Source: Oscillospiraceae bacterium (GTDB taxonomy: Bacteria; Bacillota; Clostridia; Oscillospirales; Ruminococcaceae). From it: a DNA stretch of 64,000 nt. The first letter of the stretch is position 1. Each line of letters opens with the position of its first letter. Below the pieces are notes generated by a model. That model searched no databases, was not told the DNA's origin, and worked only from the letters and a program-made list of their open reading frames with translations. Location of the stretch: the NCBI GenBank assembly GCA_030539275.1, contig JAUNSK010000007.1, positions 1 to 64,000 of the forward strand. Reading direction: 5' to 3'. Shown here one piece after another: positions 31,308 through 55,364 of the stretch. A program made the position numbers and the translations under genes.

Positions 31308-32044
31308 CAGAAAATATTCTCCTTTAACGCTTCACTCATATATTTCTTTACCATCGGACTGTAAGAACGTGAAAAGAACACCTGTGAACCATCATTCATA
31401 TATATTGTCTTTTCACTGTAATTGATCTGATCAATAAATTTTGTATTTACAACAAAGCTTCTGTGAACACGCAGAAAATAATCAGGTGCACGAGACATGA
31501 CAGACTCGAGGCTGTCATAAAACTCAAAGATCTGACCGGCAGTCCTGAGTGTTATTTTTTTGCTCTGTACCTCGATTATGATTATCTGACGAAATGAGAC
31601 CTTATAGTCTATTGACCTTATCCTGAAACTGTAAAAGCTGTTGTCTGACTGATTTTCCTCAAGTCTGCTGTAATCTGCATATATCTCATCTATAACATAT
31701 CCGACCTGTTCCTGATTTGCCTGTACCGGGAGAATTGCAGCAGGTTTTGTATCATTGCCCATGAAACCGAACATTTCTTCAGCACACGAAACTACCAGTA
31801 CTATATAGTTGTCATCATTGGACTTTCTTATTGAAGCTGAAAGCTTACCAAGATACCGGTCCTTTCTGAGCATATACAGCATAATGCAGGTATACTCCGG
31901 CAGAGCATTGTATATCGTTGTGAAACTATAGTAGCTCTTTACACTTATACTTTCTCCGGCTGATTTTTTGACACAGCATTTACAAAGAGCTGATAACGAT
32001 TCAGCCTTTTCCTTTTCACTGTCATATATCAGAATATCAAACAT
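31307..32044 (-). CDS. LytTR-family regulator with a pseudo-receiver domain
   Basis: The 245-residue protein has an N-terminal receiver-like half (about 1-125) and a C-terminal LytTR DNA-binding domain (about 135-240, with FLRVHRSFVVNTKFI and SRSYSPMVKKYM). The receiver looks inactive: only one acidic residue is seen in the first pocket (IYDSEKE) and the strand expected to carry the phospho-acceptor Asp reads CIMLYMLRKD. It overlaps the end of the EssC-like gene by 16 bases. No partner kinase is adjacent. It probably regulates the secretion cluster by a phosphorylation-independent route. Confidence 0.85.
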   Translation of the reverse strand: MFDILIYDSEKEKAESLSALCKCCVKKSAGESISVKSYYSFTTIYNALPEYTCIMLYMLRKDRYLGKLSASIRKSNDDNYIVLVVSCAEEMFGFMGNDTKPAAILPVQANQEQVGYVIDEIYADYSRLEENQSDNSFYSFRIRSIDYKVSFRQIIIIEVQSKKITLRTAGQIFEFYDSLESVMSRAPDYFLRVHRSFVVNTKFIDQINYSEKTIYMNDGSQVFFSRSYSPMVKKYMSEALKENIF

Positions 32045-35000
32045 TCCTCTTCCCCTCTGCTTACATGTAAAAATACTTCAGCTGCCTTATACTTCATACA
32101 AAGCCCTGCAGCATCCCTGTACCCTACAAACTCTATTCCGTATCCCTGTGCCCTTTGAAAAAATGTCTCAGTTATTTCACTCATGCCGTCAAAACTGTCA
32201 TGTGAATATACACAGCTGCAAAATTCATACAGGCTTCCGAGAAACACCCTGTGGGTTACAGACAGCGGACGTTTCTGACTTTTTCTGCGTTCAAACTCTT
32301 TTCTGAGCTTAACGAGCATATCATATGCTCCCTGCATCCCTGCAAATACCTGAGCACCTTCAATGATGTATCTGTCATCCCCCTCAGGAATCCACTGCAG
32401 CACAGAAATATTTTCCTGAATAATAAGTGAAGCGGCTTTCAGGTAATCTTTTCTTGTACGTACATCAAGACATCTGCACAGACAGTCGTTTTCTCTGCCC
32501 TGACCATCATCTTTGTCACTTGCCGTATCTTTGTATCTGAGTACGATCTCACCGAACTTTTCTGACATGAACTTCCTGAGCACCGATTCACTGTTGTCAC
32601 AGGTAATCAGAGCTGTCTGAAACTCACAGGAACCGCGCGAATGAAGATAAACATAACCAGGATTATCACGAATACCATGAGCCGGTACATATGACAGCAG
32701 TTGCGCATATTCACTCACGTCTCCTGACCTGAGAGCAGCCTGTGTACCGAAATTTCTTCTTGTTCTGAGTTTCATGTCTGACAGATGTTTAATTGAAACA
32801 ATAAAATATATTCCATATCTGCAGCAGTCTCTTAAAATAAGTTCAAACTTGTCAGCAAACTGCGGATAAAGCCCGCTGAATGAATAGAAGCCGTCTATAC
32901 ATACAACAACTGCAGCCATATCAGAATATCTGGCATTGTATTCATTATAATTTCCGGCGCATTTCTGTGCAAAAGTTTTCTTTCTGATTTTCATTTGGGA
33001 GATCAGCTCATCCAGAAATGCAGCCAGTTCTTCTTCATCAGGCGGAGATAATATTTTAAGAGTATGAGGAAGCTTTGAGTATATACTGAACGCAGATGAT
33101 TCAAAATCCATCACTGCTATTTTAAGTCTTAAGGGTGAATAATTTGATACCATAGAATAGAGCATGGTATTTATAAGAGTTGTTTTTCCGCTTCCCGAAT
33201 CTCCTGAAATAAGAATGCTGCCGGATGAGCCTATATCGATAACAGCAGGATATATCTTCTGATTATCGGTATCATCTGCAAGTCCGGGTACACATATGAT
33301 CCCCTGCGAAAAGTCAGATTCACCTGGCATAAGGACGTCATCAAGCAAGATACTGTCTGCAGGAGGATCAAGCCATAACGGCGGCAGAGGATCTATCCTG
33401 TTCTCCCTGGCGGACTTCATTATAAAATCTGCAAGAATACCGGCCTGCGTATCACCTGCACCTGTTTCATCATTTACAGCTGCTGTGTGCAGAACCATTT
33501 CAGAAAGATCTGTATCTACCATCTTCATATATGAGGCATCATCATCCGTATATTTTCCTCCGGAATACGCTGTCTGGATCAGTTCAAAGATCTCATCATT
33601 TCCGACCTGTACATATGCCCTTCCCGCAATTTTAAGTGTTGATGCCTCAGGCCGTCTCAGCATCTCCAGACTGTCTGCTTTATCCTGGACCTTAAGACAT
33701 ATTCTGAAGCTTGAATTGCTCCATATCTGCTCATCGATAACTCCGGCAGGCTTCTGAGTTGCAAGTATAAGATGAATACCAAGACTTCTTCCTATACGTG
33801 AAATACTGATAAGCTCACTGATAAATTCCGGATTTTCCTTCTTAAGCTCCGCAAACTCATCAACAATGATGACAATATGAGGGAGCGGCATGCTTACAAG
33901 ACCTTTTAAATACATTTTCATATACTTATCAACATGACTGAGTTTATATTTTTTTAGCAGCTCCTGACGGCGTCTTATCTCGTTTTTTATTGCAGTACAG
34001 GCCCTGTATATAACTGATGACAGTCCTCTGGCCGTATCAAGATTTGTCAGTACACCTCTCACATGAGGCAGATTTTCAAACAGCTGTGACATTCCTCCAC
34101 CCTTATAGTCGATAAGGATCATTGAAACTTCATCCGGATGATAGTTCATGGCAAGAGAAAGGATTATATTCTGCAGCACCTCTGATTTTCCCGAACCTGT
34201 CATTCCTGCAACCAGACCGTGAGGACCGTGGTTTTTCTCCCCTATATCCAGAACAAATATTTTCTGCGCCGCATCTGTTCCCAGGTTTACCCTCAACCCT
34301 TCATATGCGTGATTGACATTATATCTCTGAGTAATACTGATTTTTTGTATCTGAGATATTTCATTAAGCTTGAAAAAGCTTATACAGTCCGGCAGCATAT
34401 GTCTGGTTACAGTATAATTTTTCTTGCCCGCAAGTCTTCGTGCAAATGTATCTGCAGTACTCATGTCTGTAAAATCCATTGTAACATTTCCTTTTGTGCC
34501 GCATCTGACTATTCCCCTGAATTTGTCAGTCAGTTCACAAGTCAGATGACATTCATTCATTGAAAAGTTTTCATCAGAGTTCAGGATAATAAATGTTGCT
34601 CCAAGATCGTATTTGCTGAACATATACTTATTAACCGCACTTTGCTGTGCTGAAGGCAGATCTGTACAGAAAATTATATAATGCGGGAAGAACCGCTCTG
34701 TATATCCCTGAACCCTCAATGCTGTTCTTTCAGACAACTTATCTGATATACAATACATAACATCTGTATATGTGCTTTCAGAACCGGAAATATATCTGAA
34801 ACTGTTCTCATCTGACAGACAGTGCGGCAGCCATCCCGCCCATCTGAAGCTGTCAATATCATCTGCTTTACACAGTATTGCAAGCTTAACATCCCGGGCA
34901 CTGTGTGAAGCTGCGGCACATACTATAAGTGAATATGCCATCATATACACCTCATCAGTATTGCCCTTTATCTGAATGATCCGCTCTTTTTTCAGATCTG

Positions 35001-36234
35001 CAAGGACAGGTACATCATCCATGAGAAGTATTTTGTCGATCGTATCTCTGTAATACATGACAGCTTCCTGAGGTGAAAGAGATATCTCTGATCTTACCCC
35101 TGCCGCTCCGATCCTGAGACATAGAAAATCATCACTGTCACGTCTTCTCACAAGATCATCCGGGCAGTACAAAAGATCTGCTGTGTACTGAGCACCAGGA
35201 TATCTTGATCTGAGTATCTCTGCATTTTGTCTTACTCTCTCCTCAAGCAAACTGAGCTGATGTCCGGCAAAGGCAGAATCAAGTTTTCTGTCTTTTATGA
35301 GCTTAACACACTTGGCAAGTTTTCCGGCAGCTTGTACAACAGCACACCATAGTACTGCTGCGGCCGCTGTCAGACCTGAAAAAAGAAATATAAGACCAGG
35401 CAGCGAAGGTTTCTGCAGATACACTGAAAACACGTATGTAAGCACTGAAGCTGATATAACTGATGTCAGTGCTGCTTCACCGTAATTTCTCACGTGTCCT
35501 GAATCGTCTGTATCATCATGGCTGCATGAAAGTACAACAGGCGACATGTCGGGAAGATCATGGCAGACAGGCGTTCTGATAACACTTTCCTTTTTCCCGC
35601 CGGGAGGCTCATATCCTCCTTTATATCTCTTGAGGCTGACATGTACGCTGTCACAGCAGTTCACGCAGATAATGTCGCCTAAAAAAATAATTTTTACTCC
35701 TGCAAGATATATGACATCAGATCTGTTGAGGCACTGTCTGGAAGAAGTACGTCTGCCGTTTATATATATTTCACCCTTTACGCAGGCTTCTATATAATAT
35801 CCGTTATCCTCACACAGTATATATGCATGCTCAGTATTAACCGCATGACTGTTTATACAGATATCATCAGCTGATGAACTTCCTATTTTTATTTCATTCT
35901 TTCCTTCAGTACTGTAGAGTAAAAATCTGTTGATGCTTATCCCGGCACGGCGTACCGCAACAGGGTATATTGCTGAGGATTTTCTTGACCTGAGACTGTA
36001 TATAAAACCGTCATACAGTCTTGCTGACATAATTTCGTGTCCGCGGTTATCAAGTACTGCTGCTGTATTATCCGATACTGCATACACGTCATCACCTGTC
36101 ACCTCAAAGCTTATACTGACCGGTACTGATTTATCCTTTTCATGTAAATCTATACTTATTTTCTTTTTGTTATGAAGGCACAGATGATACTCTGAAAGTG
36201 TATCACCGCTGGTAATATAAACAGTATAATTCAT
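32029..36234 (-). CDS. essC: EssC-like FtsK/SpoIIIE ATPase with FHA domain (type VII secretion)
   Basis: The 1401-residue membrane ATPase matches the EssC layout of Firmicutes type VII secretion. An N-terminal region contains at least one FHA domain (about 95-195, KIGSSSADDI...VNTEHAYI...INGRR). Two membrane helices follow (about 250-300). The first FtsK domain has Walker A GMTGSGKS (Lys683) and Walker B VIIVDEFAEL. The second has Walker A GDSGSGKTT (Lys1017). A third C-terminal ATPase-like domain (about 1250-1401) lacks a Walker A. EssC drives export of WXG100/LXG proteins. It is first in a four-gene operon; EssA, EssB, EsaA and WXG100 genes are not present here. Confidence 0.88.
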   Translation of the reverse strand: MNYTVYITSGDTLSEYHLCLHNKKKISIDLHEKDKSVPVSISFEVTGDDVYAVSDNTAAVLDNRGHEIMSARLYDGFIYSLRSRKSSAIYPVAVRRAGISINRFLLYSTEGKNEIKIGSSSADDICINSHAVNTEHAYILCEDNGYYIEACVKGEIYINGRRTSSRQCLNRSDVIYLAGVKIIFLGDIICVNCCDSVHVSLKRYKGGYEPPGGKKESVIRTPVCHDLPDMSPVVLSCSHDDTDDSGHVRNYGEAALTSVISASVLTYVFSVYLQKPSLPGLIFLFSGLTAAAAVLWCAVVQAAGKLAKCVKLIKDRKLDSAFAGHQLSLLEERVRQNAEILRSRYPGAQYTADLLYCPDDLVRRRDSDDFLCLRIGAAGVRSEISLSPQEAVMYYRDTIDKILLMDDVPVLADLKKERIIQIKGNTDEVYMMAYSLIVCAAASHSARDVKLAILCKADDIDSFRWAGWLPHCLSDENSFRYISGSESTYTDVMYCISDKLSERTALRVQGYTERFFPHYIIFCTDLPSAQQSAVNKYMFSKYDLGATFIILNSDENFSMNECHLTCELTDKFRGIVRCGTKGNVTMDFTDMSTADTFARRLAGKKNYTVTRHMLPDCISFFKLNEISQIQKISITQRYNVNHAYEGLRVNLGTDAAQKIFVLDIGEKNHGPHGLVAGMTGSGKSEVLQNIILSLAMNYHPDEVSMILIDYKGGGMSQLFENLPHVRGVLTNLDTARGLSSVIYRACTAIKNEIRRRQELLKKYKLSHVDKYMKMYLKGLVSMPLPHIVIIVDEFAELKKENPEFISELISISRIGRSLGIHLILATQKPAGVIDEQIWSNSSFRICLKVQDKADSLEMLRRPEASTLKIAGRAYVQVGNDEIFELIQTAYSGGKYTDDDASYMKMVDTDLSEMVLHTAAVNDETGAGDTQAGILADFIMKSARENRIDPLPPLWLDPPADSILLDDVLMPGESDFSQGIICVPGLADDTDNQKIYPAVIDIGSSGSILISGDSGSGKTTLINTMLYSMVSNYSPLRLKIAVMDFESSAFSIYSKLPHTLKILSPPDEEELAAFLDELISQMKIRKKTFAQKCAGNYNEYNARYSDMAAVVVCIDGFYSFSGLYPQFADKFELILRDCCRYGIYFIVSIKHLSDMKLRTRRNFGTQAALRSGDVSEYAQLLSYVPAHGIRDNPGYVYLHSRGSCEFQTALITCDNSESVLRKFMSEKFGEIVLRYKDTASDKDDGQGRENDCLCRCLDVRTRKDYLKAASLIIQENISVLQWIPEGDDRYIIEGAQVFAGMQGAYDMLVKLRKEFERRKSQKRPLSVTHRVFLGSLYEFCSCVYSHDSFDGMSEITETFFQRAQGYGIEFVGYRDAAGLCMKYKAAEVFLHVSRGEEECLIF

Positions 36235-44659: not shown

Positions 44660-45383
44660 ACTGATACATACAGAATTTCTTAAACTCAGACGCAGAAAGT
44701 TTATTTTTATAATGATGCTTGCAGCACTGGTTATGCCGTTTTTTGCACTGCTGTATTTCAGATATTTCGGTCACGAAGGCATCGAACCAATGCAGTTTTA
44801 CAGAATATCTGCTTTCGGTTATACACTCTGGATAGTCCTGCCTTTTATCCTTGGAATACTCAGCACCGTAATTATGTACGACGAAAACCGCAATGATATG
44901 CTCAAACAGCTCTGGATCGTTCCGGTCAGCAAAATGGGGTATTTCTTCAGCAAATTTTTTATAGTACTTATTTACTCGGTATGCTTTATGTTAATTACAG
45001 CTGTCTTCTCGGTTGCATTCAGTGTATTATCCGGATATGTCTCTTTTGACTTCAACAGCGTGTTATTATTGTTTGGCAGAAGTCTTCAGACAGGTGTCCT
45101 TGTTGCTTTTGCTGTACTTCCTGTAGTGGCTGCTGCCGCAATGAGCAAAGGATATATTCTGCCGGTGTTTGCAGCACTGATATATAACTTTCTTGGATTC
45201 TTTACAGCATCGCTGAATATGTATCTTCACCCGTTATCAAGTACTGCAGTTATAATCATGCCGGACACATCTGCTGCATCACAGACAGAACCGGCAAATA
45301 TCCCGCTGGCTTTGCTTTGTATCGGCGTCTGGGGCACAGCCTCAGTACTTACGGCTTACACAGCACTTAAAAAAAGAAAGTGA
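44652..45383 (+). CDS. ABC transporter permease, LanE/MutE-like
   Basis: This 243-residue membrane protein begins at a TTG that overlaps the ATPase gene's end; a GGGGGCGAGGG purine-rich site precedes it. It has about six helices (first at about 18-36) and begins LKLIHTEFLKLRRRKFI, the usual start of lantibiotic-protection permeases. It should form the transmembrane half together with the next gene's product. Confidence 0.87.
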   Translation: MLKLIHTEFLKLRRRKFIFIMMLAALVMPFFALLYFRYFGHEGIEPMQFYRISAFGYTLWIVLPFILGILSTVIMYDENRNDMLKQLWIVPVSKMGYFFSKFFIVLIYSVCFMLITAVFSVAFSVLSGYVSFDFNSVLLLFGRSLQTGVLVAFAVLPVVAAAAMSKGYILPVFAALIYNFLGFFTASLNMYLHPLSSTAVIIMPDTSAASQTEPANIPLALLCIGVWGTASVLTAYTALKKRK

Positions 45384-45393
45384 GGTATGTATC

Positions 45394-46128
45394 ATGAAAA
45401 TATTACTCCTGACGGAATGCATGAAGCTTCGCCGCTCTAAAATAGTATGGATCTCAGTGGCCGCCGCATTTCTGATATCAGCCATAGTTTTTTTAGGCGG
45501 TACGGCAGAAAATGATAGCATTCGTCTTATAGACTCAGCCGGATGGTATATGTCAGTTGTTCAGCCAATGTCAACAATGTTTGTTATTCCTGCAGTCATT
45601 GCCCTTCTCGGCAGCTATATGATCTGCCGTGAAGAACAGGAGGACACAATAAAATCCCTTCGTCTGATCCCGATAAATGAAACAAAAATGACCGCCGCCA
45701 AAATGATCATTACATTTGCGTTCTGCATACTCATATACCTGCTGCTTTTTGTTATAACTCTTACTGCTGAAGCAATTCTTCACGTTCAGGATCTGTCAGT
45801 TTCTATTGCTGCAGGATATCTCACCGCATATATTATTGATGCAGCAGGTGTTTTTCTTGCTGTCTCACCTGTCATAGCTCTTGTTTCATACATGAAAAAA
45901 AGCTACTGGATCTCTTTAGTGATAGCCGAGATCTATTCTTTTGCCGGTCTGTTTATGAGTATGTCGAACACACTGAAGACCTTATATCCGATCACAGCGA
46001 TCTTTGGTGTATCCGGTTATTATGAAACGTCTGCAGTTAGTAAAACCGAAAGTATCGCTGTTTTGCTGGTATGCGGCTGCCTTTCTTTCGTCATTCTTAA
46101 AGGACTTAAATTTCATGAGGACAGATAA
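45394..46128 (+). CDS. ABC transporter permease, LanG/MutG-like
   Basis: The 244-residue membrane protein has six predicted helices and starts LLLTECMKLRRSKIVWIS, a form of the same family as the preceding permease. A GTGAGG ribosome region overlaps the upstream gene's end. Its 3' end (from about CATGAGGAC) is partly repeated 385 bp downstream at the edge of the second micropeptide unit, so a duplication began inside this gene. Confidence 0.87.
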   Translation: MKILLLTECMKLRRSKIVWISVAAAFLISAIVFLGGTAENDSIRLIDSAGWYMSVVQPMSTMFVIPAVIALLGSYMICREEQEDTIKSLRLIPINETKMTAAKMIITFAFCILIYLLLFVITLTAEAILHVQDLSVSIAAGYLTAYIIDAAGVFLAVSPVIALVSYMKKSYWISLVIAEIYSFAGLFMSMSNTLKTLYPITAIFGVSGYYETSAVSKTESIAVLLVCGCLSFVILKGLKFHEDR

Positions 46129-46189
46129 ACACCTGAAAATATGAAAACCGACTCAGCCTGAATACTGTTGATAGTTTTTACAACAGCAT

Positions 46190-46237
46190 AAAAAAACGGA
46201 GCCGCAGATACTTCAAAACGAAGAATCTGCGGCCCCG
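46190..46237 (-). terminator. Terminator of micropeptide unit 1
   Basis: The arms GGAGCCGCAGAT (46198-46209) and ATCTGCGGCCCC (46225-46236) enclose a CTTC/GAAG inner stem. On the minus strand six T follow. Compared with unit 2, one G-C pair is replaced by A-T with both sides changed, which supports selection on the fold. Confidence 0.85.
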
Positions 46238-46277
46238 GATATATGTCAGATATTATGTATCTAAAGTTGTTTGATAA

Positions 46278-46331
46278 TTATGCGCAGAATGAACGAAGCC
46301 ATTCGCAAAGTGAAGCAAATATGTTACACAT
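46278..46331 (-). CDS. 17-residue three-cysteine peptide, copy 1
   Basis: The predicted product is MCNIFASLCEWLRSFCA. An AGGAGG ribosome site (46341-46346) lies nine bases before the ATG, and a near-consensus promoter lies beyond it. The peptide is hydrophobic with no net charge. Its cysteines are at 2, 9 and 16, exactly seven apart, so they would line one face of a helix. It has no leader peptide. It is adjacent to, and opposite in direction to, a lantibiotic-type ABC transporter. I recognise no family. It could be a signalling peptide, a leaderless bacteriocin, a small membrane toxin or the coding part of a dual-function RNA. Confidence 0.72.
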   Translation of the reverse strand: MCNIFASLCEWLRSFCA

Positions 46332-46374
46332 AGTTTAGTACCTCCTGATTTATTTCCCTCTCTGGGATGACTTA

Positions 46375-46403
46375 ATTATAACACATTGGTTACACAATTG
46401 CAA
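46375..46403 (-). promoter_or_regulatory. Promoter of micropeptide unit 1
   Basis: On the minus strand TTGCAA (46398-46403) and consensus TATAAT (46375-46380) are 17 bases apart. The start codon is 43 bases downstream. Upstream and across the promoter a GT(A/T) step recurs every 11 bases (46382, 46393, 46404, 46415, 46426). Confidence 0.78.
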
Positions 46404-46572
46404 CAAAATAATTACGGAAAAATTACATGCTGGATATGGCAGATGTATTTTTTATTCTGACTCCTGTAAACATGTTATTATTAAAACATGAAAAATATTA
46501 TGAGGACGATATACTCCTGAAAATATGAAAAGCGACTCAGCCTGAATACTGTTGCCGGTTTTCACAACAGCA

Positions 46573-46622
46573 TAATAAAAACGGGGCCACAGATACTTCA
46601 AAGCGAAGAATCTGTGGCCCCG
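46573..46622 (-). terminator. Terminator of micropeptide unit 2
   Basis: The perfect arms GGGGCCACAGAT (46583-46594) and ATCTGTGGCCCC (46610-46621) enclose a CTTC/GAAG inner stem, followed on the minus strand by a T run. Confidence 0.88.
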
Positions 46623-46662
46623 GATATATGTCAGATATTATGTATCTAAAGTTGTTTGATAA

Positions 46663-46716
46663 TTATGCGCAGAATGAACGAAGCCATTCGCAAAGTGAAG
46701 CAAATATGTTACACAT
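46663..46716 (-). CDS. 17-residue three-cysteine peptide, copy 2
   Basis: This gene encodes the same 17 residues as copy 1 and the 54 bases are the same. It has its own AGGAGG ribosome site (46726-46731), promoter and terminator, so each copy is an independent gene of about 175 transcribed bases. Two complete units with separate signals argue against a chance ORF. Function is unknown; see copy 1 for possibilities. Confidence 0.72.
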   Translation of the reverse strand: MCNIFASLCEWLRSFCA

Positions 46717-46759
46717 AGTTTAATACCTCCTGATTTATTTCCCTCTTTGGGATGACTTA

Positions 46760-46788
46760 ATTATAACACACTGGTTACACAATTGCAA
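46760..46788 (-). promoter_or_regulatory. Promoter of micropeptide unit 2
   Basis: On the minus strand TTGCAA (46783-46788) and TATAAT (46760-46765) are separated by 17 bases. The 11-base periodic GT(A/T) steps end at 46767, 46778, 46789, 46800 and 46811, the two outer ones as GTAATT. Confidence 0.78.
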
Positions 46789-46837
46789 CAAAATAATTAC
46801 GGAAAAATTACATACTGGATATGGCAGACGTATTTTA

Positions 46838-47005
46838 TATACTATGTCATTGCTGCTGATCCATTTGCATTATTTGTCCTGACCTTTCCGGCGCTGAGAA
46901 GGTAAGCAGGAAATATTATTGAGATCAAATCAAGCAGGCGGACCTGCCGGACATACTGTGCCGGCTGGTCCGTTTTATGGTACTGCTGCCAGCCCGTGAA
47001 TTAAT
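46838..47005. other. Spacer with a hairpin
   Basis: No gene is seen. A stem GGACC-CCGG...CCGG-GGTCC at about 46941-46974 is followed by a short T run on the plus strand. It may be a weak terminator or a remnant of another unit. Confidence 0.35.
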
Positions 47006-47046: not shown

Positions 47047-47829
47047 TCAGTCTTTATTAAGATCTGTTTTCGGCTCACGCTCACTGTCATTATCTGATAT
47101 AACACCAGGATCTGAGCCTTCATTCCCGGCAGACGGTGCAGAAATGTTTACTGCCTCACCAGCTGACTGCACAGGCGTGTCAGTATTTACAGGCGGTGTC
47201 TGTCTGACTGGCGCCTGATTATCCGGGAAAGGTAATGCAGTTCCTCCGGCTGCCAGTTTTGCATTTTCGCTGCGGCTGAATACAACAAGAGATGCAGCAG
47301 CAGTTGCGACAAGCAGGATCATAACTATGTAATATCCACCGCTGGCCGAGACCTTAAGTCCATATTGCTTATAGTCCTTCAGGTCATAATATCCTGTAAA
47401 TGACCACTTTGAAACAGCCAGCATAAAAGCTGACAGAAGTGAAGGAGCAAATGCGAACTTCTTTATACTCTTCACAAGACTTATTCCCAGTGCAGCTGCG
47501 GCACATATAAATGAAATAGTGATAAAAGCATTTCCGGGCTTGTCACCGCCTTCAGGATCCTTTTCTGATGCTTCTCCTCCTGCCATAAGCTGAAAACCCG
47601 AATAACTTTCCTCATATTTCTCACCGTATGCTGAACATGATACAGTAAAGAAAGGAAGTGCAAAGCATATCAGCGTAATCAGCATTGCGATCCTGACAGC
47701 AAGGATGGAACCATGCTTTTTATTTTTTACCTGCTCGTTTTTGAGCTTTAACTGTTCTTCATTAATTTTTTCTCCGCACTTCGGACAAAACATACCTTCA
47801 AAATCTGCTCCACATTTTTTACACTGCAT
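47047..47829 (-). CDS. Zinc-ribbon membrane protein of unknown function
   Basis: The start is the ATG at 47829, with an AAGGTGG ribosome site; a TTG one codon earlier is less likely. The 260-residue product opens with a zinc ribbon (CKKCGADFEGMFCPKCGE, two CxxC knuckles). Four predicted helices follow (about 45-66, 100-120, 128-145, 165-185), with an extracytoplasmic loop after the first, and a disordered Pro/Asp-rich cytoplasmic tail ends it. Such proteins are common in clostridia and have no established role. It is monocistronic. Confidence 0.8.
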   Translation of the reverse strand: MQCKKCGADFEGMFCPKCGEKINEEQLKLKNEQVKNKKHGSILAVRIAMLITLICFALPFFTVSCSAYGEKYEESYSGFQLMAGGEASEKDPEGGDKPGNAFITISFICAAAALGISLVKSIKKFAFAPSLLSAFMLAVSKWSFTGYYDLKDYKQYGLKVSASGGYYIVMILLVATAAASLVVFSRSENAKLAAGGTALPFPDNQAPVRQTPPVNTDTPVQSAGEAVNISAPSAGNEGSDPGVISDNDSEREPKTDLNKD

Positions 47830-48012
47830 CAAAAAACCACCTTATCTCTTAATTTATATGGCACCGGCCAGTATCATCGGGGTAAGTAAATGAATAAAAA
47901 CCCTGTCATATGCTGATCCTTTTTTCATCTTATAAATATGTATGAAGCTTAACCGGATATAATTATTATAACCCAGTCCCGGCTATTTGTCAATATTTTC
48001 TAAATGACTGTA

Positions 48013-53573: not shown

Positions 53574-55364
53574 ATGAATTTCAAACCAAAAGGTTATCTC
53601 AGCCGTATAGTCGGTGCTGCAGCTGCAGCTGTTCTGACATTAATGCCTTTTTCAGCTTCAGCCCCTTCCTGTTCATTTGATGCCGGTGAAGTTTCCGCCG
53701 ATGCAGTTGCCGTTTCCAAAAAAACATCTGACTGTGATTATTCATTTAAAGTAGGCGAAAAGATTGACAGTGACAATCAGTACATTCTTGATCTGTCTGA
53801 TATTGCATCAGGAAGCACTATCTCTGAAATACTCATTGAAGTATCGACTTCTCAGGCTTCCTCCCAGGCAATGGTTGCCTATGGATGCCATGTAGCAGGA
53901 TATAATGAGGATGACTGGTTTTCAGATTCCGGAATAAGCTCAGGAAACATAATTGATTTTCTGTATACAGTTCCGCAGGAAGTATCATCAGTGTTCGGCA
54001 AAGATTTTACATCAATTAATATTCAGTACTGGTGGGGCTCAGAGGACAGCGTTACAGTCGAAAGTGTCGGAGTAAATGTTCTTGGCGGTACTGCAAGCAC
54101 GCTCAAGGGTGATCTTAATGCTGACAAGAAGATCAATGTTGCCGATCTTGTTATTCTGCAGAAATATTTACTCGGCAGTGAAGAACTAAAAAATGAAAAT
54201 GCAGCCGATTACAATAATGACAGTGCAGTTGATCTGCTTGATTTTATTCTGATAAGAGACAAGATCATCAGGGCAGAAGCAGATAAACCGATAATCACAG
54301 ATGAAAGTGCCATAGAGTTTGTAAAGAATATAAAAATCGGCTGGAATCTCGGAAACACCCTCGATACATATGGCATAACAAAAGGACTGTTTCCTAACGG
54401 ATGGATAACAGATCCGACCATCGCCCAGTTCGAGACATCATGGAACAATCCTATAACATCAAAAGAAATGATCGATGCTGTAAAGGCTGCCGGTTTCAAT
54501 ACAGTACGTGTTCCTGTAAGCTGGGGTGAAAAAATGGGTAATGGTCCTGACTATACCGTTGATCCTGCATGGATGTCTCGTGTAAATGAAGTAGTTGACT
54601 ATGTTATAGACAATGACATGTACTGCATTCTTAATGTACATCACGACGACTACTGGATGATCCCTACTGCTGCAAATTACAGCAAATCAGAAGCCCAGCT
54701 CGATAAGCTCTGGGAACAGATAGCAGAAAACTTCAGATCATATGATGAACACCTTATTTTTGAAACAATGAATGAACCTCGTCTTGTAGGTGATGCAACA
54801 GAATGGATGGGCGGAACATCAGAAGCAAGAGACTGCATAAACAAGCTTAACCAGTCAGCACTTGACGTTATCAGAGGAAACGGCGGAAACAACGAGAAGA
54901 GATACGTTATGATGCCGACTTATGCAGCAGCAAATATTCCTCAGACTATCAATGACATGGTCGTTCCTGAGGATGACAAGGTAATAGTATCAATTCATGC
55001 ATATGCACCGTATTCGTTTGCACTTGATCCGAAAGGAACTGCAGAATGGAGCGGTACAGCAGCAGAAGTAAACGAGCTTGACTCAAACTTCAAAGCCCTT
55101 TACGATAAATTTATCAGTCAGAATATTCCTGTTGTAATAGGAGAATTTGCATCTCTTGAAAAGGGAAACAACACTCAGGACCGAATCCGCTGGGCTGAGA
55201 CATATACTACTCTTGCCTCAAAGTATGGTATACCATGCGTATGGTGGGATAACAATGCTTTCTCATCAGCTGATTCAAATATTGGCATTTTCAACCGCAG
55301 CACTCTTAAGTTTGAATTCCCAGGCATAGTGGAGGCTCTTATGAAAGGTGTAGCCGGAAGATAA
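53574..55364 (+). CDS. Secreted GH5 glycoside hydrolase with internal dockerin and an unassigned N-terminal module
   Basis: The 596-residue protein starts with a signal peptide (about 1-30). A beta-rich module (about 52-172, several Trp and Tyr such as QYWWGSED) is probably carbohydrate-binding but was not assigned. A type I dockerin follows at about 177-235 (GDLNADKKINVADLVILQKY and ADYNNDSAVDLLDFILIRDK). The GH5 domain is at about 243-596 with acid/base Glu401 in ETMNEP and nucleophile Glu524 in PVVIGEFA; GWNLGNTLD is typical of the GH5_4 endoglucanases/xyloglucanases. Placing the dockerin in the middle rather than at the end is less common. A GGAGG ribosome site supports the start. Confidence 0.93.
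   Translation: MNFKPKGYLSRIVGAAAAAVLTLMPFSASAPSCSFDAGEVSADAVAVSKKTSDCDYSFKVGEKIDSDNQYILDLSDIASGSTISEILIEVSTSQASSQAMVAYGCHVAGYNEDDWFSDSGISSGNIIDFLYTVPQEVSSVFGKDFTSINIQYWWGSEDSVTVESVGVNVLGGTASTLKGDLNADKKINVADLVILQKYLLGSEELKNENAADYNNDSAVDLLDFILIRDKIIRAEADKPIITDESAIEFVKNIKIGWNLGNTLDTYGITKGLFPNGWITDPTIAQFETSWNNPITSKEMIDAVKAAGFNTVRVPVSWGEKMGNGPDYTVDPAWMSRVNEVVDYVIDNDMYCILNVHHDDYWMIPTAANYSKSEAQLDKLWEQIAENFRSYDEHLIFETMNEPRLVGDATEWMGGTSEARDCINKLNQSALDVIRGNGGNNEKRYVMMPTYAAANIPQTINDMVVPEDDKVIVSIHAYAPYSFALDPKGTAEWSGTAAEVNELDSNFKALYDKFISQNIPVVIGEFASLEKGNNTQDRIRWAETYTTLASKYGIPCVWWDNNAFSSADSNIGIFNRSTLKFEFPGIVEALMKGVAGR

Follow-up and report, generated by a model that had tools for sequence, protein, structure and literature searches.

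Several described systems resemble the short gene reported here. Cyclic lactone autoinducers of the AgrD type are short peptides with a key cysteine. PSMs, which are linked to the Pmt exporter, are leaderless, short and amphipathic, as are the members of the present family, and we know of no conserved cysteines in them. Type I toxins are alike in size, in the occurrence of tandem copies and in their short structured mRNA; to our knowledge, cysteine ends are a feature neither of known type I toxins nor of SpoVM. SpoVM (see PMC4307972) has no signal peptide and is located at the membrane surface as a very short amphipathic helix. At the RNA level, 5'-terminal stem-loops stabilize the ompA and papA mRNAs of E. 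coli and the aprE leader RNA of B. subtilis, according to the titles of works cited in PMC3997798.

The gene examined here differs from each of these systems. Compared with AgrD, six longer relatives gave no NCBIfam match, and no partner enzyme or receptor recurs among the families listed for the immediate neighbors. The likeness to SpoVM lies in the very short amphipathic helix and the missing signal peptide; however, the same six relatives matched neither Pfam nor NCBIfam. Compared with PSMs and Pmt, NCBIfam again gave no match for the six relatives, the ABC ATPase in the window scored below the PmtC cut-off (162 bits against 375), and exporters adjoin the gene in a few genera only. Cysteines at both ends and the absence of an excess of antisense promoters set the gene apart from type I toxins. 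The layout of ompA, papA and aprE, with a 5'-terminal stem-loop preceding a strong ribosome site, is found here too. However, those stem-loops precede longer genes, whereas here they precede a micropeptide family, with arms that co-vary across genera and with a hairpin repeated for each open reading frame (ORF) in one genome (G009); stabilization in the present case would be by analogy. From sequence comparison, the gene almost certainly belongs to an unannotated micropeptide family of Clostridia with a cysteine near each end.

Organization of the twin units

The window, i.e., the whole stretch of DNA analyzed, comprises 64,000 nucleotides of an Oscillospiraceae bacterium (contig JAUNSK010000007.1). 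A 385-bp unit is present in it twice, at 46192-46458 and 46577-46843, as direct repeats with 96% identity and a spacing of 385. Genome-wide blastn search with the unit returned only these two copies, the third row of the output being the terminator stem matching itself. Both copies carry, on the minus strand, a promoter, AGGAGG, an ATG nine bases downstream of it, the codons for the 17-residue peptide MCNIFASLCEWLRSFCA, a stop codon and a terminator; the 17 codons and the stop are identical between the copies.

In the upstream copy (copy 2), the consensus scan placed the -35 element TTGCAA at 46783-46788 and, after a 17-base spacer, the -10 element TATAAT with its TG extension at 46760-46765 (promoter 46788-46760, minus strand). 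Folding and arm comparison revealed a 5'-UTR hairpin, TCCC-AAAGA-GGGA, at 46740-46752, which starts 7 nt after the -10 element. It is followed by the AGGAGG ribosome binding site at 46726-46731, the ORF at 46663-46716 (identified from the sequence, its relatives and the coding test), a 3'-UTR motif, TACATA ... GACATA, at 46627-46644, and an intrinsic terminator with a 12-13 bp hairpin and a T-run at 46577-46622. The corresponding minus-strand elements of copy 1 are TTGCAA at 46398-46403 and TATAAT, with the same spacer and TG extension, at 46375-46380 (promoter 46403-46375), a hairpin TCCC-AGAGA-GGGA detected by folding at 46355-46367, AGGAGG at 46341-46346, the ORF, identified from the sequence and its relatives, at 46278-46331, the motif at 46242-46259 and the terminator, detected by folding, at 46190-46237. 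The 3'-UTR motif was recognized in both copies from the sequence and from motif counts.

A preliminary description of this DNA had proposed two 385-bp repeats with complete gene signals, namely the promoter, the ribosome site at its nine-base distance, the MCNIFASLCEWLRSFCA codons and a strong terminator, and every one of these elements was recovered in both copies. The terminator hairpin with its T-run was clear in whole-transcript folds (z -5.7 and -4.6, with 0 of 200 shuffles as good), although a simple consensus terminator scan of the window listed none.

The units are flanked by a plus-strand operon that converges on them and ends at 46128, and by a minus-strand gene at 47047-47832 for which Pfam and NCBIfam, within the limits used, gave no match. 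Elsewhere in the window, a GH5 cellulase with a type I dockerin is located at 53574-55364, and the host is therefore likely to be cellulosome-making. A 1401-residue protein encoded at 32029-36234 on the minus strand resembles, by eye, an EssC/FtsK-type ATPase of type VII secretion.

Relatives, distribution and coding evidence

Among 297 genomes of the family, a back-translated pattern with up to three mismatches matched two, that of the window and G270. The latter belongs to another genus and encodes the peptide MCNIFTRLCELLSYFCA behind the same leader as the window units. The unit is more than a chance arrangement, because both the leader and a selected frame recur in this relative from a different genus. 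Since 17 residues are too few for a protein search, sequence models were used: R1, built from three sequences (the two window copies and that of G270), and the broader R2 and R3. The searches covered 396 family genomes, two sets of 295 and 384 genomes from the order, 11 from the genus, 38 carriers and 162 from the class. A locus was counted as a member when examination revealed a short ORF of the MCNIFASLCEWLRSFCA kind together with a ribosome site.

The same layout was found in at least 40 genomes from 26 genera and five families (f1, f9, f14, f24 and f86) of one class. These carriers comprise 27 of the 396 family genomes, two more genomes of f1, ten genomes of the order outside f1, and one genome (G903) from another order of the class. 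The counts include one member (L130 in G033) added by a re-scan of 16 loci at contig ends, and leave out eight of the 40 genomes matched in one family search (G044, G122, G129, G226, G246, G303, G316 and G344); the G303 match, from another search, is an ordinary gene. Weak model matches turned out to be ordinary genes at 15 of 29, 4 of 16, 16 of 26 and 7 of 8 loci in four sets, and two of the 28 order loci L047-L074 passed a filter of at least three cysteines at a fixed position. A scan of named genomes yielded six metagenome contigs and no added members; four were assigned to Oscillospiraceae, one to an uncultured Ruminococcus and one to unplaced Clostridia, and three of the six contig titles name deer, goat or sheep gut.

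Within the genus, occurrence is patchy, with two of 11 genomes carrying the gene in a model search with weak matches screened. Most carriers have one locus per genome, counting strong matches and leaving out weaker second ones. Tandem copies were found in two species of the genus: those of the window and those of G009, where three cassettes of hairpin, SD and ORF follow a 121-base period behind one promoter (L095, G009:C215, contig 45348-45718). In G336 (L126), the first peptide ORF is followed by a second, different one of the same kind, MCNFNFSYIIDIIKNCFGGCR. Blastn with the unit gave no match in 10 other genomes of the genus, in phages or in plasmids. Four sequence patterns matched 0 contigs in phage and viral collections at the sensitivities used, and a fifth gave six chance matches, none with the peptide.

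Substitution patterns indicate that the reading frames are under selection and that the locus is a protein-coding micropeptide gene. In 13 pairs, which share members, substitutions at codon positions 1, 2 and 3 numbered 45, 29 and 86, and amino-acid identity exceeded that under random substitution in 11 of the 13 (p <= 0.023; the exceptions were G127/G202 and G207/G347). Length changes among members are in frame, and the selected frame spans 16-27 codons. The preliminary description had named a conserved RNA fold with a broken reading frame as a pattern that would speak against the peptide; among the examined loci, no leader was followed by a broken peptide frame, and hairpin loci without the peptide proved to be ordinary genes.

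A cysteine occupies residue 2 or 3 in every one of the 40 distinct peptides (14.8 in shuffles, at most 24), and each of the 40 has another among its final four residues (24.9 in shuffles, at most 34), figures that are to be read with the relatedness of the members in mind and with the fact that L049 and L057 were first spotted by a filter of at least three cysteines and L130 by one of at least one. Cys2 itself occurs in 35 of the 40 and is partly selected by the search, because the models contain the start region. The other five peptides all have Cys3, and selection therefore acts on the residue rather than on the letters ATGTG. Proline is absent from all 40. Among the 37 scored peptides, cysteine makes up 20.5% of residues, and the helical moment exceeded that of shuffles at p < 0.05 in 25, as expected of an amphipathic helix. 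The cysteines at 2, 9 and 16, on which the preliminary description had based a heptad arrangement, are present in MCNIFASLCEWLRSFCA; however, this exact spacing occurs in only five of 37 distinct peptides, and the general feature is a cysteine near each end.

The earlier statement that no named family has this sequence still holds for the collections searched. Pfam and NCBIfam gave no match for six longer peptides, the 17-mer itself being below scan length. At the gathering score, Rfam 15 gave 0 matches in the window and only a tmRNA and two tRNAs in 20 member loci; below threshold, there were two chance matches, and no Rfam family falls at the gene. The family is not named in the literature surveyed, including passages of PMC13376575 and PMC3997798. 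That it carries no label in the libraries searched may be because annotation readily overlooks genes of such small size.

Leader hairpin and untranslated regions

In 35 of 36 leaders with a recognized -10 element, a hairpin arm, identified by letter pattern, starts 5-8 nt after it (7 nt in 17 leaders, 6 in 10, 8 in 7 and 5 in 1; one was unmeasured). Because of this distance, the hairpin is placed at the presumed 5' end of the RNA. AAAT-like letters continue most leaders. Several arm classes were distinguished: TCCC/GGGA in the window, longer TCCG arms in G102, G296, G336 and G373, and TTGT-bulge-CT/AGACAA-like arms in other families. Pairing was stronger between a leader's own arms than between arms swapped with other classes (-6.85 versus -3.22 kcal/mol in 34 UTRs, leaving out the four without the 3' motif, G307, G301, G253 and G378). 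The permutation p over 12 class representatives was 0.0026, with G705 placed in the TCCG class and G557 badly split. By this comparison of sequences, the hairpin arms co-vary.

The UTR folded alone was significant (p <= 0.05) in only nine of 26 cases, and G307, G301 and G378 have no real hairpin, the UTR fold showing none or nearly none. Loop length ranges from 4 nt to more than 100 nt, and this variability speaks for an RNA element rather than a DNA operator. Long inserts inside the leader loop, from about 1540 on, with both arms and the ORF retained, were seen in L020 (G198) and L023 (G296). Similar hairpins were observed near the presumed start of ordinary genes among the weak matches (L125, L128, L162, L175, L176 and L178). 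The hairpin thus also occurs outside the family, as would suit a general 5' stabilizer rather than a family-only element. Openness of the stretch from SD to AUG did not exceed that of shuffles (0.43 versus 0.44).

Promoter-like sequences were present at 33 of 38 loci and terminator-like sequences at 36 of 38, as raw counts without a shuffle control. Between the stop codon and the terminator, ACATA was found in 16 of 36 3' UTRs against 2.5 expected, and GACAT in 13 of 36 against 1.5 expected; both are confined almost wholly to the window's family. No support was obtained for pairing between the start codon and the ACATA of the 3' UTR (own partners -7.6, swapped partners -7.8 kcal/mol), in a test that is weak because both sides are conserved.

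Neighboring genes and possible roles

The operon in the window encodes a VanRS-like two-component pair and an ABC system with two ABC-2 permeases. Its ATPase is nearest to the lantibiotic-protection family, at 234.6 bits with a cut-off of 309.75. A link between the peptide and a transporter of this type had been suggested in the preliminary description, and in that form it was not borne out: PF12730 (ABC-2 permease) was found in one of 75 immediate neighbors of 38 loci, the window's own. Transporters of another kind keep part of the suggestion alive. PF00664, the family of ABC exporter halves, accounts for four of the 75 immediate neighbors (G102, G296, G373 and G743), in three of 24 genera and two families and in differing orientation; L102, L106, L142 and L204 hold exporter pairs. 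Four baseline genomes together have 35 PF00664 genes in about 11.3 Mb. Assuming one gene per kb, this predicts 0.23 matches among 75 slots (P 1e-4), and 0.15 when each genus contributes one locus (P 5e-4). The adjacency is a lead and not proof, because the test came after the pattern had been noticed, and three of the four genomes behind the baseline had been selected for showing it. In a control of 108 ORFs farther out, PF00664 was absent among the 25 of 132 families listed, a list that might leave out a single match.

ABC ATPases as a whole, grouped as a blast cluster, were in no clear excess, at 5 of the 75 immediate neighbors and 11 of 332 ORFs elsewhere (Fisher p 0.19), and one of the five, in G431, is nearest to sulfonate uptake ATPases. 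All nine pairs of homologous immediate neighbors from different genera were ABC ATPases, with sides and strands differing. Within genera, neighbors are often common to the members; farther from the gene, 24 gene clusters recur in at least two genera, at scattered positions. In genus g20, three loci (L101, L107 and L140) have a conserved upstream neighbor of 154-179 residues, probably a TspO/MBR protein (matched three times). A partner protease or receptor of the AgrD type was not recognized as a recurring family among the 25 of 90 Pfam families listed for the 75 immediate neighbors. The nearest downstream ORF lies on the opposite strand at 23 of 37 loci and is co-directional at 14; neighbor ORFs were called mechanically, and in G270 a plus-strand ORF was taken where a 287-residue minus-strand ORF exists.

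We lean, tentatively, towards a stand-alone amphipathic micropeptide that works through its terminal cysteines, a role suggested by peptide and gene features. Each unit would be a gene in its own right, with a promoter, usually a 5' hairpin, a strong ribosome site, a frame and a terminator. The 5'-terminal hairpin may shield the short mRNA from decay, as in ompA and aprE, and so allow much peptide to be made. Removal of the initiator methionine would expose the N-terminal cysteine, and the peptide, lacking a signal peptide, could form a proline-free amphipathic helix on the inner membrane surface. The cysteines near its two ends would act together as a pair of thiols, either holding a metal or cofactor or joining two helices, and the tandem copies of the window genome and of another species in the genus would increase the dose. 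We infer membrane binding and metal or thiol chemistry from the composition of the peptides alone.

A close rival, possible though on balance unlikely, is a leaderless PSM-like, signaling or antimicrobial peptide shaped by its terminal cysteines and exported through an ABC exporter. The exporter halves above the genome baseline, in particular the pairs beside the gene in three genera, count for export and therefore against the explanation that we prefer; the restriction of cross-genus neighbor homology to ABC ATPases and the lantibiotic-protection-like ABC operon of the window point the same way. However, the exporter category was picked post hoc against a baseline chosen largely for such adjacency, ABC ATPases taken together show no clear excess and include a probable uptake type, orientation varies, most loci have no such neighbor, and no modifying enzyme or receptor recurs. 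The co-varying arms and the enriched ACATA and GACAT motifs would also suit a dual-function or mainly regulatory small RNA, whose hairpin and 3'-UTR ACATA act in trans or bind a protein and whose ORF is secondary. We regard this as improbable, given that the frame is selected, the cysteine ends are invariant and ACATA is almost restricted to the window's family.

Somewhat less probable still is a type I toxin, i.e., a small membrane-active peptide silenced by antisense RNA. The short amphipathic peptide, the short structured mRNA and the tandem copies in two species agree with such a toxin; however, antisense promoter-like sites, counted as sigma-70-like sites only, occurred at nine of 38 loci against 8.6 expected, the ribosome site is not hidden beyond shuffles, the phage, plasmid and viral collections gave no match at the sensitivities used, and we know of no such toxins with cysteine ends. 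A cysteine-sensing leader peptide or attenuator of a downstream gene is very unlikely. Cysteine codons followed by a terminator-like hairpin at 36 of 38 loci, and the co-directional minority of downstream ORFs, are what it would predict, but the majority of downstream ORFs lie on the opposite strand, and the only homologous immediate neighbors across genera are ABC proteins on differing sides and strands. Seventeen codons by themselves are weak evidence, and an ORF arising by chance on a repeated non-coding element might be considered on that account; it is hardly tenable, since a frame under selection in other genera already refutes it, and the invariant cysteine ends also speak against it.

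Compared with these alternatives, the stand-alone cysteine micropeptide, although held tentatively, remains our preferred explanation, and the family offers several points of access to it. Invariant cysteines at both ends and a co-varying hairpin are separate handles on the peptide and on the RNA, the exporter pairs adjoining the gene in some genera provide a direct test of export, and the transcript can be sought immediately in gut and rumen transcriptomes that already exist. In broader terms, and with confidence still somewhat short of even, the family may represent a thiol-peptide system that is broadly inherited in Clostridia, typically at one locus per genome, and lies outside known families. 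Its product would be a short helix, with a cysteine close to either end, translated from a short mRNA with a 5' hairpin, and would perform a metal, cofactor or redox task at the membrane surface or serve in cell-to-cell signaling after export by an ABC pair.
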